From IMG/VR virus record IMGVR_UViG_3300035698_008965, positions 1 through 42,256 of that record: 42,256 nt of DNA; one strand, given 5' to 3'. Below, piece by piece: positions 30,007-40,183 of the stretch (its first letter is position 1; each line of letters starts with the position of its first letter). Position numbers and translations under genes: made by a program. Below the pieces are notes generated by a model. That model saw only the letters and a program-made list of their open reading frames with translations. It had not been told where the DNA came from and did no database searches. This DNA comes from a virus.

Positions 30007-30017
30007 CAATATACGAA
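30007..30017 (-). promoter_or_regulatory. TTCGTATATTG element (candidate promoter)
   Basis: This minus-strand element lies 23 bases upstream of the groES ATG. The same 11-mer occurs before tRNA-Met and before the large candidate RNA. Confidence 0.5.
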
Positions 30018-34222: not shown

Positions 34223-34492
34223 TTATTTGTTATTTGTTATTTGTTTAAAATTTATATTAAATCTGAATTCTAATTCTTTTTCGGTTGATAATCCCAATGA
34301 TGGTGGTGTGATATTTGGTGGAGAATCAGATGAACAATCAATTACATGATAATGTTCTACGTATTCACCACGGGAATCACACATCATTCCAGCAGATAAT
34401 ATAATCAATTCTACTGGAAAATGTTCTGAGGTAAAGTGATGGACAGGTTTATTTCCTATCTTATGTTTCCAATGATCTTTTAAGTTCGACAT
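34223..34492 (-). CDS. Small hypothetical protein
   Basis: The ATG at 34492 gives an 89-residue protein starting MSNLKDHWKHKIGNK; a longer frame reaches 34531 but adds a Phe/Tyr-rich stretch of doubtful value. The product contains His and Cys residues (VEHYHVIDCSSD) but no recognised motif. It is the first gene transcribed below the large non-coding region and precedes the DUF4494-like gene by one base. Confidence 0.55.
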   Translation of the reverse strand: MSNLKDHWKHKIGNKPVHHFTSEHFPVELIILSAGMMCDSRGEYVEHYHVIDCSSDSPPNITPPSLGLSTEKELEFRFNINFKQITNNK

Positions 34493-34551
34493 GATGTAAT
34501 ATATGAAAAAATACTTGAATAAACAAGCCATTTGTGAATTATTAACAGAAC

Positions 34552-34662
34552 GTTAATAACGTATGTATTGAGAATTTAATTGGTAGGTTGAGATTAAACC
34601 TCTTATGTTATCACTTTTGTTACCGTGCCAATAAAGTGCGACCTCTATTGTTAATAACGTAT
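34552..34662. repeat. 13-bp direct repeat pair
   Basis: GTTAATAACGTAT occurs at 34552-34564 and again at 34650-34662, near the 3' end of the large candidate RNA. The core GTTAATAAC is itself nearly palindromic. Confidence 0.8.
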
Positions 34663-34886
34663 CCACATTCAACACGAATGTATGACAACATCACCGCCTT
34701 TTTTAATGAGTGGCTATACTCATATCATTATGGAACTACTCAACTTTCATCTTTCCTCTGACCTTGCGAGCCATTCATCACCGCGAAGTGATTAAGTGCA
34801 GAATTCAATCAATTCATTTCTGCCTTGCGAGCTTCTACGAACCTACATTCTCCTAAGAGTGTAGGATTAGGTGATTTGTTTTCCAT

Positions 34887-35029
34887 AACTGTTGAAGTCT
34901 TTGCTTTTTTCTATCTATATGATAGTAAGTGATGGATTTGAACCACCGACAATCTGCTTCTGAGGCAAATGCTCTACCAACTGAGCTAACTTACAAAGTT
35001 TAAATTCACGAAGGTGTGCTTCAACAGTT
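34887..35029 (-). repeat. 11-bp inverted repeat clasping the tRNA-like domain
   Basis: AACTGTTGAAG (34887-34897 on the plus strand) is the exact reverse complement of 35019-35029. The tRNA-like sequence at 34923-34995 lies entirely between the arms, so in RNA it would be presented at the end of a helix. Confidence 0.85.
34923..34995 (-). tRNA. tRNA-like domain, anticodon CAG (Leu by codon)
   Basis: D-arm GCTC/GAGC, anticodon stem TTTGC/GCAGA with loop CTCAGAA, and T-arm GGTGG/CCATC with loop TTCAAAT are all present. The anticodon CAG would read CUG (Leu). However, the variable loop is short (5 bases), unlike class II tRNA-Leu, and the first acceptor pair is T-T. It may be a tRNA mimic within the larger RNA rather than a working tRNA. 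Confidence 0.7.
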
Positions 35030-35663
35030 GCTTCATACCCTTTTGAGATACAAAATACAACACACCTCATACGTTTCGGATTGCAAATCCTACTGTGCGG
35101 TATTTTAAGATTACTACGAATTCTATACGAATCCTTTTACCTTTCATACTGAATGTTCGCCTTATCCCTAGCAAGGAATCAAACTCACACTCTACAACTT
35201 ATCCTATTCTAACTACATTGATTTAGTTTGTAATGGGGTAAGTTACTACACTTATTAGTTCTCACCGAATGGCTCTGAACGTATCCTTTCTCAAGGGCCC
35301 GATTACATCAACTTACTGCTATATCCACCATTTGGTAATGATGGCCTGATTTGAGTATCAGGTAAGATGTTGCTTGTTTAAATGAACTAACGAATTAGCG
35401 ATGAGATGTGATATATCACCTTTCAAAATCCTTACGGATTTCTATTCTTTATTAAACTATCAACTTATTGTCAGCCTGGCTGTTACACATCGATGATACT
35501 TTAATTGGATATCAAACTACCCAATATTATTAAACTCCCATTGGACAGTGGTAATACGTAGATTATCTTCAACCCCGATGCCAAATCGGTGCCTACTACC
35601 GAAGTAGGATTAATCATGTATTTAGTTTAATACTTTCAATACTTTCAAAGAACGATTTCTTTA

Positions 35664-35700
35664 CTTATTTAACACCCACAATATACGAAACTTAAATAAG
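35664..35700. repeat. 9-bp inverted repeat around promoter-like motif
   Basis: CTTATTTAA (35664-35672) and TTAAATAAG (35692-35700) flank the CAATATACGAA motif at 35679-35689. It could be an operator-like site or the 5' hairpin of the large RNA. Confidence 0.7.
35679..35689 (-). promoter_or_regulatory. TTCGTATATTG element upstream of large RNA
   Basis: This is an exact copy of the element preceding groES. It is placed at the 5' border of the large non-coding region. Confidence 0.5.
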
Positions 35701-35742
35701 ATATCCAAATTTAATATGTTAAATTAATGTTAAATCTTTTTG

Positions 35743-35815
35743 AGCGGGTGGATGGAACTGACCCACCTTCTTCTAACTGGAAGTTAAACGGGTATTCCCT
35801 TAACCCCTCACCCGC
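35743..35815 (-). tRNA. tRNA-Gly(TCC), copy 1
   Basis: There is a perfect 7-bp acceptor stem (GCGGGTG/CACCCGC), discriminator U, and anticodon loop CTTCCAG with anticodon TCC for GGA. The D-arm is GGG/CCC. Position 8 is A and the T-loop (GTCAGTT) is atypical. CCA is not encoded. An AATACTTATA element lies 42 bases upstream. Confidence 0.85.
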
Positions 35816-35856
35816 ATTTATAGTTTCCACAATCATTATCGTTTCAACCGTGCTAA

Positions 35857-35866
35857 TATAAGTATT
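35857..35866 (-). promoter_or_regulatory. AATACTTATA element (candidate late promoter)
   Basis: This is an exact motif match 42 bases upstream of tRNA-Gly, between the 20-bp direct repeats. Confidence 0.35.
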
Positions 35867-35911
35867 AAAATTAACTTAACAAAACTTTTGATGTTAAATT
35901 AATGTTAAATA

Positions 35912-36175
35912 TTATTTTACTTCACTTTTAATTAAATCAATTATTGATTGATTTTTTTGTAAACCTACAACTACATTCCATAAATTTTTCATGTATGTAA
36001 TATGTGAATCTTGCATTTTAAATTGAAGTTCATCATCCATATAAAATGGTGTCGTTGAACCTGTGATTAATGCATCTATGACATCGACATCTCTACTTAC
36101 ATCTACTGTAGAATTATTCATTAATTGTTTAAGATATTGTATCTTATTAGGTAAACTTACATTCTCCCACCTCAT
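35912..36175 (-). CDS. Small hypothetical protein
   Basis: The 87-residue helical protein (MRWENVSLPNKIQYLKQLMN, ending IDLIKSEVK) is not recognised. Its ATG overlaps the stop of the DUF3293-like gene (ATGA), so the pair is translationally coupled and likely functions together. It is followed by a 20-bp direct repeat and a tRNA gene. Confidence 0.6.
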   Translation of the reverse strand: MRWENVSLPNKIQYLKQLMNNSTVDVSRDVDVIDALITGSTTPFYMDDELQFKMQDSHITYMKNLWNVVVGLQKNQSIIDLIKSEVK

Positions 36176-36794: not shown

Positions 36795-36869
36795 TGGGCC
36801 TTGAGGGACTCGAACCCCCGACCTTTACGTTATGAGCGTACTGCTACTAACCAACTGAGCTAAAGGCCC
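36795..36869 (-). tRNA. tRNA-Met(CAT)
   Basis: Acceptor stem GGGCCTT/AAGGCCC, D-arm GCTC (imperfect closure), anticodon loop CTCATAA and T-arm GGGGG/CCCTC are visible; A73. It is elongator-type by its G1-C72 pair, although a tRNA-Ile(CAU, lysidine) identity cannot be excluded. A TTCGTATATTG element lies 22 bases upstream. Confidence 0.88.
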
Positions 36870-36891
36870 GATAATATATATTATATAAATA

Positions 36892-36902
36892 CAATATACG
36901 AA
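36892..36902 (-). promoter_or_regulatory. TTCGTATATTG element upstream of tRNA-Met
   Basis: This is an exact copy of the groES-type element, with GTATTTATA following downstream. Confidence 0.5.
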
Positions 36903-37095: not shown

Positions 37096-37490
37096 TGGAG
37101 CTGGAGGGATTCGAACCCTCGTCTTATTCAGCACGTCATACAAATTCATTCACAATCATAGTTCATTTTTCTAAATAAACAAAATACCAAAATTATTGAT
37201 GTGGTTTATAATGTCAACTTTGTAAAAACATTCTCATAACGGATTTCCACTATCCTACTACACTTTAAGGTAGTTAGCACCCACTTATAACTTTCTGTTT
37301 CTAGGTAGTTATCACCCATCGGCTACGCTGCTAGAGCGAACTCACCACCTACGAAAGACATTGCATCTTCGAAGGTAAAATCTGACTTTTCGTCGTTTAA
37401 CTATTATCACCATAGATTATAGAGATAGATGACATTTCTCTGATTGCACTCACATAAACTAGATCTGCTAATCAATTCCAAGTCAGCCCC
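37096..37490 (-). ncRNA. ssrA: tmRNA (phage-encoded)
   Basis: About 395 bases carry the tmRNA ends. The 5' GGGGCTG pairs with 3' CAGCTCC, including the G3-U70 wobble that specifies alanine; the discriminator is A, and the T-arm is GAGGG/CCCTC with TTCGAAT. The internal tag frame ends GCT CTA GCA GCG TAG, encoding ALAA. The best resume site is TAGGT followed by GGT, which gives the tag GEFALAA, matching the GE...ALAA tags of Bacteroidetes. tmRNA releases stalled ribosomes and tags the partial products for proteolysis. CCA is not encoded. Confidence 0.93.
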
Positions 37491-40102: not shown

Positions 40103-40108
40103 ATTTTG

Positions 40109-40183
40109 GGTGAAAAGTCAGACTCGAACTGACGACCTCTTGATTCACAGTCAAGCACTCTAACCAACTGAGCTATAATCACC
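40109..40183 (-). tRNA. tRNA-His(GTG)
   Basis: Anticodon loop CTGTGAA in stem CTTGA/TCAAG. An extra G at the 5' end pairs with C73, the hallmark of tRNA-His. T-arm GTCAG/CTGAC. The acceptor has two T-T mismatches in its inner half. Confidence 0.9.

Follow-up and report, generated by a model that had tools for sequence, protein, structure and literature searches.

A GOLLD RNA in a virus record holds, in its linker, a tRNA-like domain that probably takes no part in translation

The virus record IMGVR_UViG_3300035698_008965 of IMG/VR (42,256 bases, analysed over its whole length and called the window here) contains, near genes for transfer RNAs (tRNAs), a stretch without open reading frames of 60 or more amino acids (34531-35912). 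Judging from its sequence, the RNA encoded there almost certainly belongs to the GOLLD family, whose function is unknown according to PMC12286853, which makes it an addition to an established family rather than a new class of RNA. Its linker holds a tRNA-like sequence, and comparison with the linkers of other GOLLDs indicates that such sequences are probably retained, non-translating domains of the larger RNA. Overall, the explanation that best fits the observations, and one we consider reasonably likely, is a promoter-led GOLLD cage RNA with a retained tRNA-like linker domain. The first-pass annotation of the sequence had already pointed to the gene-free stretch, a promoter at its head and a tRNA-like sequence between the arms of an inverted repeat, and all of these held. 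It had left the choice amongst a divergent ROOL RNA, a divergent GOLLD and a new class of RNA, and of these only GOLLD stands.

The Rfam model of the GOLLD 3' domain (RF02032) matches the window over its full length at 184.7 bits, above its gathering score of 150 and with an E-value of 1.5e-50 over the whole window, while it matched none of 14 control genomes. When all 4,227 Rfam families were run against the window, GOLLD was the sole long non-coding match besides the tRNAs and a transfer-messenger RNA (tmRNA). The element resembles other GOLLDs in its match to the full 3'-domain model, its separate 5' domain, its context of phage tRNA genes and its variable linker holding a tRNA; unlike it, the best GOLLDs found score as high as 330 bits. 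With nhmmer, the 0.6 kb preceding the 3' domain aligns with the corresponding region of other GOLLDs at E-values as low as 8e-07, and a 38-nucleotide block within it is 84-87% identical in many of them. In an alignment of the window with 20 other GOLLDs selected by us (21 sequences), the consensus fold of this region has 92 pairs, 66 of which show at least one sequence changed on both sides with pairing kept, and a covariation term of -21.4 kcal/mol. This is the structured 5' domain that one expects upstream of the 3' domain of a GOLLD. ROOL, also a large cage-forming phage RNA found near tRNA islands, differs in giving no match at its gathering score in the window and none at E up to 1 within 34500-35720, and that identity was rejected.

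The first-pass annotation had proposed to judge the RNA by the Rfam models, by covariation in homologues and by the presence of protein genes in the same interval of homologous phages. The last of these agrees with the other two: no protein gene runs across the 3' domain in 17 annotated GOLLD-bearing phage records. In Rey, one hypothetical coding sequence overlaps the edge of the 3' domain by 11 bases, and in six mycobacteriophages short hypothetical coding sequences lie just upstream of the 3' domain, at the expected place of the 5' domain. Elsewhere, two records (G066 and G065; L251/L254 and L252/L255) carry tandem pairs of GOLLDs, with starts about 1 kb apart and scores of 176.7 and 86.5 bits, with no linker tRNA.

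The box TTCGTATATTG at the head of the RNA is part of a two-box promoter that recurs across the phage. Support for this comes from strand bias in a relative and not from counts in the window, where the 30 box matches at up to 2 mismatches (29.4 expected) are at chance level. The RNA region is identical over 1,141 nucleotides in three other IMG/VR contigs, one of which (G009, 174,750 bases) was taken to represent a more complete phage. There, TTCGTATATTG with at most 1 mismatch occurs 20 times on the forward strand and 3 times on the reverse strand (3 and 5 times for a reversed-pattern control), and the 9 exact copies are every one of them on the strand of the GOLLD. Alignment of these 9 copies gives an upstream box with the consensus tTtGG at a spacing of 15 nucleotides, the capital T and both Gs being present in at least 8 of the 9. 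We take the motif to resemble the -33/-7 promoters of Bacteroidetes. Three exact copies of the box occur in the window (30007-30017, 35679-35689 and 36892-36902), all on the minus strand, and the last lies 23-33 bases upstream of a gene for tRNA-Met (tRNA start at 36869). The exact 9-base arms CTTATTTAA and TTAAATAAG that flank the downstream box at the GOLLD look incidental, because by eye the relative's 8 further exact promoter copies lack them. The RNA is probably about 1.1 kb long and runs on the minus strand from about 35672, a start placed by the promoter, to 34585. A search of 34300-35900 gave no intrinsic terminator. In a sigma-70 scan, 11 sites appeared where 6.7 were expected (standard deviation 2.5).

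Table 1. Positions in the window of the GOLLD RNA, its parts and its promoter
Feature	Position	Strand	Basis
GOLLD 3' domain, Rfam RF02032	34585..35068	-	184.7 bits, model 1-416 of 416
GOLLD 5' domain	35069..35672, conserved core about 35069-35470	-	nhmmer and covariation; start placed by the promoter
Linker-closing 11-bp helix, 5' arm	35019..35029	-	exact repeat; covariation in 51 distinct GOLLDs
Linker-closing 11-bp helix, 3' arm	34887..34897	-	exact repeat; covariation in 51 distinct GOLLDs
tRNA-like domain in GOLLD linker, called tRNA-Leu(CAG)	34923..34995	-	Rfam tRNA 64.8 bits; ARAGORN 34921-34996
Anticodon loop CUCAGAA of tRNA-like domain	34958..34964	-	cloverleaf fit
Upstream promoter box TTTGG	35705..35709	-	15 nucleotides before downstream box; common to the relative's 9 exact copies
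Downstream promoter box TTCGTATATTG	35679..35689	-	exact match

The exact 11-base inverted repeat is, on the evidence of covariation, a helix that closes the GOLLD linker with the tRNA inside. Its core is unpaired in the structure line of Rfam. In 51 distinct GOLLDs with both arms anchored by motif (27 of the 111 copies described below could not be anchored), 374 of 459 cells pair in the correct register, whereas 1,000 partner shuffles averaged 297 and never exceeded 321, and slid registers give 30-47% pairing; the observed figure is lowered because some rows were anchored on the wrong motif. The relatives L127, L130 and L132 contribute no covariation, their 1,141-nucleotide stretch being identical. 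Within the linker, the tRNA insert sits between a UCAAAAG hairpin and AAAAGCAA, at the place of the variable linker of GOLLD.

As a tRNA, the window copy has a sound cloverleaf (64.8 bits), made of a 76-nucleotide class-I body with a CAG anticodon and a variable loop of 5 nucleotides. Bacterial tRNA-Leu needs a long variable arm, which a translating tRNA-Leu would be expected to show and this copy does not; both tRNA-Leu of the window's tRNA array (the tRNA genes outside the linker) are 87 nucleotides long according to ARAGORN. Its acceptor stem forms 6 of 7 pairs, with a mismatch of U1 and U72, and U-C-A stands at the position of CCA. Of these arguments, the clash of class is the stronger point and outweighs the acceptor defect. 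In the array itself, tRNA-His(GTG) (40108-40182) reached only 5 of 7 acceptor pairs in a register search.

That a GOLLD linker can hold a tRNA is already known, because PMC12286853 states that phage-encoded tRNAs are sometimes present there. The same source describes the structure of GOLLD env-38 obtained by cryo-electron microscopy, in which the linker lies inside a cage (Kretsch et al. 2025). On the character of the linker tRNAs, no prior statement was found in the open-licence literature beyond the papers cited here. Linker tRNAs were compared, as a set, with array tRNAs.

Rfam searches, taken by record batch, found GOLLD in 17 of 37, 13 of 36, 12 of 24, 35 of 35 and 33 of 34 records. After the loss of two records with fragmentary matches (G004 and G018) and the addition of two second copies and the window, 111 GOLLD copies were examined; a 49-bit second match in G145 was also dropped before counting. 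Pattern searches contributed to the batches, yielding 111 new loci, of which 69 passed a motif filter and were scanned with Rfam and 42 were left out. One search pattern included the T loop and the two adjacent pairs of the T stem, so that counts concerning the T arm are biased upward; it included neither the acceptor nor the anticodon. Amongst GOLLDs gathered without the T-loop pattern, the window included, 12 of 43 copies (9 of 34 distinct ones) hold a linker tRNA, a figure that is no census because some patterns were drawn from the window. Cloverleaves were fitted by a custom script that could place them more freely on linkers than on controls, a bias expected to benefit the linkers. It separates the 111 copies cleanly, 74 scoring above 25 and 37 scoring 20.04 or less. 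Removal of identical sequences left 59 distinct linker tRNAs, and 303 distinct tRNAs called by ARAGORN outside the GOLLD match in the same stretches served as controls. ARAGORN is expected to favour good acceptors amongst the controls, and it also called 70 of the 74 linker tRNAs.

Linker and array tRNAs differ at the acceptor end. A complete 7-bp acceptor stem is found in 3 of 59 linker tRNAs as against 258 of 303 array tRNAs, pair 2:71 is formed in 18 of 59 as against 295 of 303, and CCA is encoded in 5 of 59 as against 188 of 303. The inner stems, in contrast, are kept at least as well in linker as in array tRNAs: on average 3.92 and 3.61 of 4 pairs in the D stem, 4.92 and 4.76 of 5 in the anticodon stem, and 5.0 and 4.93 of 5 in the T stem. 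Several types of pair occur at each position of the linker inner stems, except for the two invariant T-stem pairs next to the loop, on which the search pattern had partly imposed their form. Since the D, anticodon and T arms are kept and a sound acceptor end mostly is not, normal maturation and charging look unlikely. At 80% identity the linker tRNAs fall into 22 clusters, with a full acceptor in any member of only 3 and CCA in any member of 3.

Decoding features differ as well. Counting as irregular an anticodon loop of 8 or 6 nucleotides, the lack of U33, a Leu or Ser anticodon on a class-I body, a stop anticodon, or A34 other than in ACG, at least one such feature marks 28 of 59 linker tRNAs and 33 of 303 array tRNAs. 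Leu or Ser anticodons on class-I bodies account for 11 of 59 as against 12 of 303, and 8-nucleotide loops for 7 of 59 as against 1 of 303. The inserts, phage-encoded tRNAs in the published description, have acceptor ends and anticodon loops that behave differently from those of array tRNAs. Two further inserts may be mentioned. The 469-kb Sinorhizobium phage Phosso (L242:1501-1969) has a GOLLD with an unannotated tRNA-like insert bearing a UCU anticodon, and at L173:1501-1991, a sequence 99.6% identical to MT835469.1 from human faeces, a GOLLD has a tRNA-sized linker without a recognisable cloverleaf, possibly a decayed insert.

The anticodon loop evidently changes quickly between close relatives. 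Amongst nearest neighbours whose stems and T arms are at least 95% identical, the loop differs in 11 of 16 comparisons for linker tRNAs and in 2 of 41 for array tRNAs; these counts are not independent. Sister pairs are independent, and 9 of them, at no more than 10% GOLLD divergence, were taken from a tree built on GOLLD with the tRNA excluded. Over these pairs the loop has 16 changes in 63 sites (a change in loop length counting as one), the stems and T arm 14 in 441, and GOLLD 94 in 3395. The loop changed in 5 of the 9 pairs, compared with 1 of 21 reciprocal array pairs (Fisher P 0.005), and the array anticodon in 0 of 21 (P 0.0009). The array pairs were chosen by having at most 3 differences outside the loop and the linker pairs by GOLLD divergence; matched at no more than 3 differences outside the loop, the counts are 4 of 8 and 1 of 21 (P 0.013). 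When array pairs with up to 7 differences are admitted, the array anticodon changed in 2 of 38 (P 0.0015).

In the pair G138 and G153, 1 of 391 GOLLD sites, none of 49 stem and T-arm sites and 5 of 1,469 aligned sites in the 1.5-kb flanks differ, yet the loops, ATTGATAA and ATTTTGA, are unlike in length as well as in sequence. Between G102 and G120, 6 of 320 GOLLD sites and none of 49 stem and T-arm sites differ, and the loops are ATTGAAG and CTCTTAA. A third pair, G106 and G127 (L402:1501-1967 and L399:1501-1963), has a pattern suggestive of an exchange of the entire module, with 7 of 392 GOLLD sites and 12 of 49 stem and T-arm sites different.

Loop differences also occur amongst named phages. 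All 13 Mclasvirinae mycobacteriophage records examined, which lie outside the set of 111 copies and whose linkers were read by eye, have a GOLLD above the cut-off. Estes and Rey are otherwise almost identical; most of their differences fall in the anticodon arm, and both the anticodon stem and the T stem show paired changes. The same 6-bp anticodon stem recurs in Bongo, Reindeer and GenevaB15, which have three different loops and no recognisable acceptor, whilst prophiT49-2, prophiGD54-2 and prophi86-1 share one 8-nucleotide loop. Because Estes, Rey, Bongo, Reindeer and GenevaB15 have Mycobacterium smegmatis mc2 155 as their listed host, the differences in their loops do not depend on metagenome assembly. 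The depositors annotated the mycobacteriophage inserts as Leu, Ser, Gln, undetermined, or not at all. In DSS3_MAL1 and Phaeobacter phage MD18, a tRNA-Arg is annotated at the place of the linker.

Several observations weigh against a retained, non-translating domain with a fast-changing loop. The acceptor of the window copy is only mildly defective, at least one pair being missed also by 3 of the 19 array tRNAs of the window, and its lack of CCA is uninformative because none of the 19 encodes CCA. The combination of a Leu or Ser anticodon with a class-I body, as just given, is found in some array tRNAs too. The anticodons CUU and UCU recur (16 and 10 of 59), a pattern that drift alone does not predict. 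The loop was kept in 4 of the 9 close sister pairs, and at up to 7 differences it changed in 8 of 38 array pairs (P 0.09 against 5 of 9). The changed loops may be single block events, each counted as many substitutions, in which case per-site P values exaggerate the excess. Over the whole tree, moreover, the loop is no faster than its surroundings in the module: the mean number of changes is 14.1 for loop columns (7-nucleotide loops only) and 8.4 for GOLLD columns, but 15.4 and 15.6 for anticodon-stem columns and 16.3 and 18.6 for acceptor columns. The idea that, on this scale, no part of the module changes faster than the loop was therefore not upheld, and the excess is confined to close pairs.

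Perhaps a tRNA gene simply landed in a tolerant, unstructured linker, where it decays as a neutral passenger. By the description in PMC12286853, the linker is where GOLLD is variable and disordered; 37 of the 111 copies have no linker cloverleaf, and some relatives of carriers lack the insert, such as Nanosmite (by eye) and vB_RpoS-V10. A decaying passenger would hardly keep the pairing of its D, anticodon and T stems through compensated changes in 59 distinct copies, nor appear in 22 clusters, nor change its loop more than the surrounding GOLLD in close pairs, and we consider this account unlikely.

Or the insert may be a working phage tRNA, excised from the GOLLD transcript by RNase P and RNase Z, GOLLD then being in part a precursor. 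Its cloverleaf, strong in the window and stronger in G054 (69.5 bits), would suit this, as would the few linker tRNAs with a sound acceptor or CCA and the recurrent CUU and UCU anticodons. The acceptor and anticodon statistics, amongst them the misplaced Leu and Ser anticodons and the 8-nucleotide loops, set the linker tRNAs apart from the array. In one Mycobacterium, a study that terms the GOLLD-internal copy a pseudo-tRNA gene did not detect its expression (PMC6582537). On balance a working tRNA seems quite improbable.

In a third account the tRNA-like arm serves to dock GOLLD, either to ribosomes or to enzymes recognising the tRNA elbow, during the switch to lysis. Mimicry of tRNA has a precedent in the bacterial Y RNA YrlA, which has a non-translating tRNA-like module within another RNA; here YrlA, compared for homology through Rfam alone, gave matches only below cut-off and on stretches outside GOLLD. 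The well-kept D and T arms fit such docking (though the T loop was part of one search pattern), and ribosomes bind GOLLD in pull-downs, as stated in PMC12286853. Docking leaves the changes in loop length and sequence between near-identical copies unexplained, and it must contend with the 37 GOLLD copies without a tRNA. We regard it as rather doubtful, but both ribosome docking and neutral decay should be kept in play. That the RNA belongs to a new ornate class unrelated to GOLLD, as might be thought from the absence of any place covering 80% of it in a Blastn search of 50,697 phage records, can be dismissed with near certainty in view of the full-length match to RF02032 above cut-off and the covarying 5' domain held in common.

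The genomic setting is that of a phage. Besides the linker copy, the window has 19 tRNAs (20 calls in total) and a tmRNA, and it encodes a baseplate wedge protein whose best relatives in phage records are those of Microcystis phage Mel-JY01 (52%) and of Flavobacterium phages of the immuto group (43% identity). Flavobacterium phages amongst the nearest baseplate relatives are in keeping with the Bacteroidetes phage supposed by the first-pass annotation; the assignment of a host is itself no more than a candidate. No GOLLD match was found in the baseplate relatives Flavobacterium immuto 3-5A and Mel-JY01, a weak negative since the same scan gave no match anywhere, and a near-identity search of half of the window against phage records gave no match. 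The tmRNA (37096-37490, Rfam 56.6 bits) has the tag DEKSDFTFEDAMSFVGGEFALAA, and so do those of the near relatives L127 and L130. In three other stretches (L243:947-1235, L244:2077-2365 and L245:2127-2430), a tmRNA adjoining GOLLD matches both the alpha_tmRNA model and the permuted tmRNA model, and at least two of these phages list marine alphaproteobacterial hosts. Some candidates for further GOLLDs were rejected: at least 120 stretches from pattern searches, judged by motif check alone, all 120 of those listed having reached at most 2 of 4 points; 2 stretches from a scan of a genome collection, judged by alignment alone and chance-like in it; and a candidate in Lactobacillus phage JNU_P7, where the alignment gave a tRNA match only.

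What might a retained tRNA-like domain do? In the scheme that we prefer, the phage's own promoter would drive the GOLLD RNA of about 1.1 kb, which, by homology to the GOLLD seen by cryo-electron microscopy, would assemble into a cage of 14 chains with the linker facing the interior. The tRNA-like domain, framed by its conserved helix, would stay in the RNA chain, so that each cage could hold up to 14 anticodon arms. These may lure factors that read the loop, such as host anticodon nucleases, and the loop would diversify in response. An anticodon arm that stays in the chain and has no functional acceptor would suit a bait better than a substitute tRNA. The putative function as a decoy for anticodon nucleases is thus our preferred one, though speculative and offered tentatively.

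Phage tRNAs are already implicated in such conflicts. Changes in their anticodon loops are one proposed means of evading the tRNA nucleases of the host (van den Berg et al. 2023, PMC10264068), and phage tRNAs are reported to rescue phages from defences that cut tRNA (Azam et al. 2024, PMC11555353). The linker domain is like them in being encoded by a phage and, with regard to PMC10264068, in the changes of its anticodon loop. It differs in that those tRNAs are free, whereas the arm in the window is embedded in a large RNA, where it would serve as bait.

If GOLLD linkers hold tRNA mimics whose anticodon loops change fast, the function of GOLLD becomes testable. Annotations in which the inserts figure as tRNAs of the phage (Leu, Ser, Gln, Arg) would then miscount. 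More speculatively still, and with greater doubt than attends the decoy itself, GOLLD cages may be putative anti-defence devices, each presenting up to 14 baits: mimics dead to decoding, whose loops are rewritten in sequence and in length against host nucleases. Such a cage could trap the nuclease or be cut in place of the real tRNAs.
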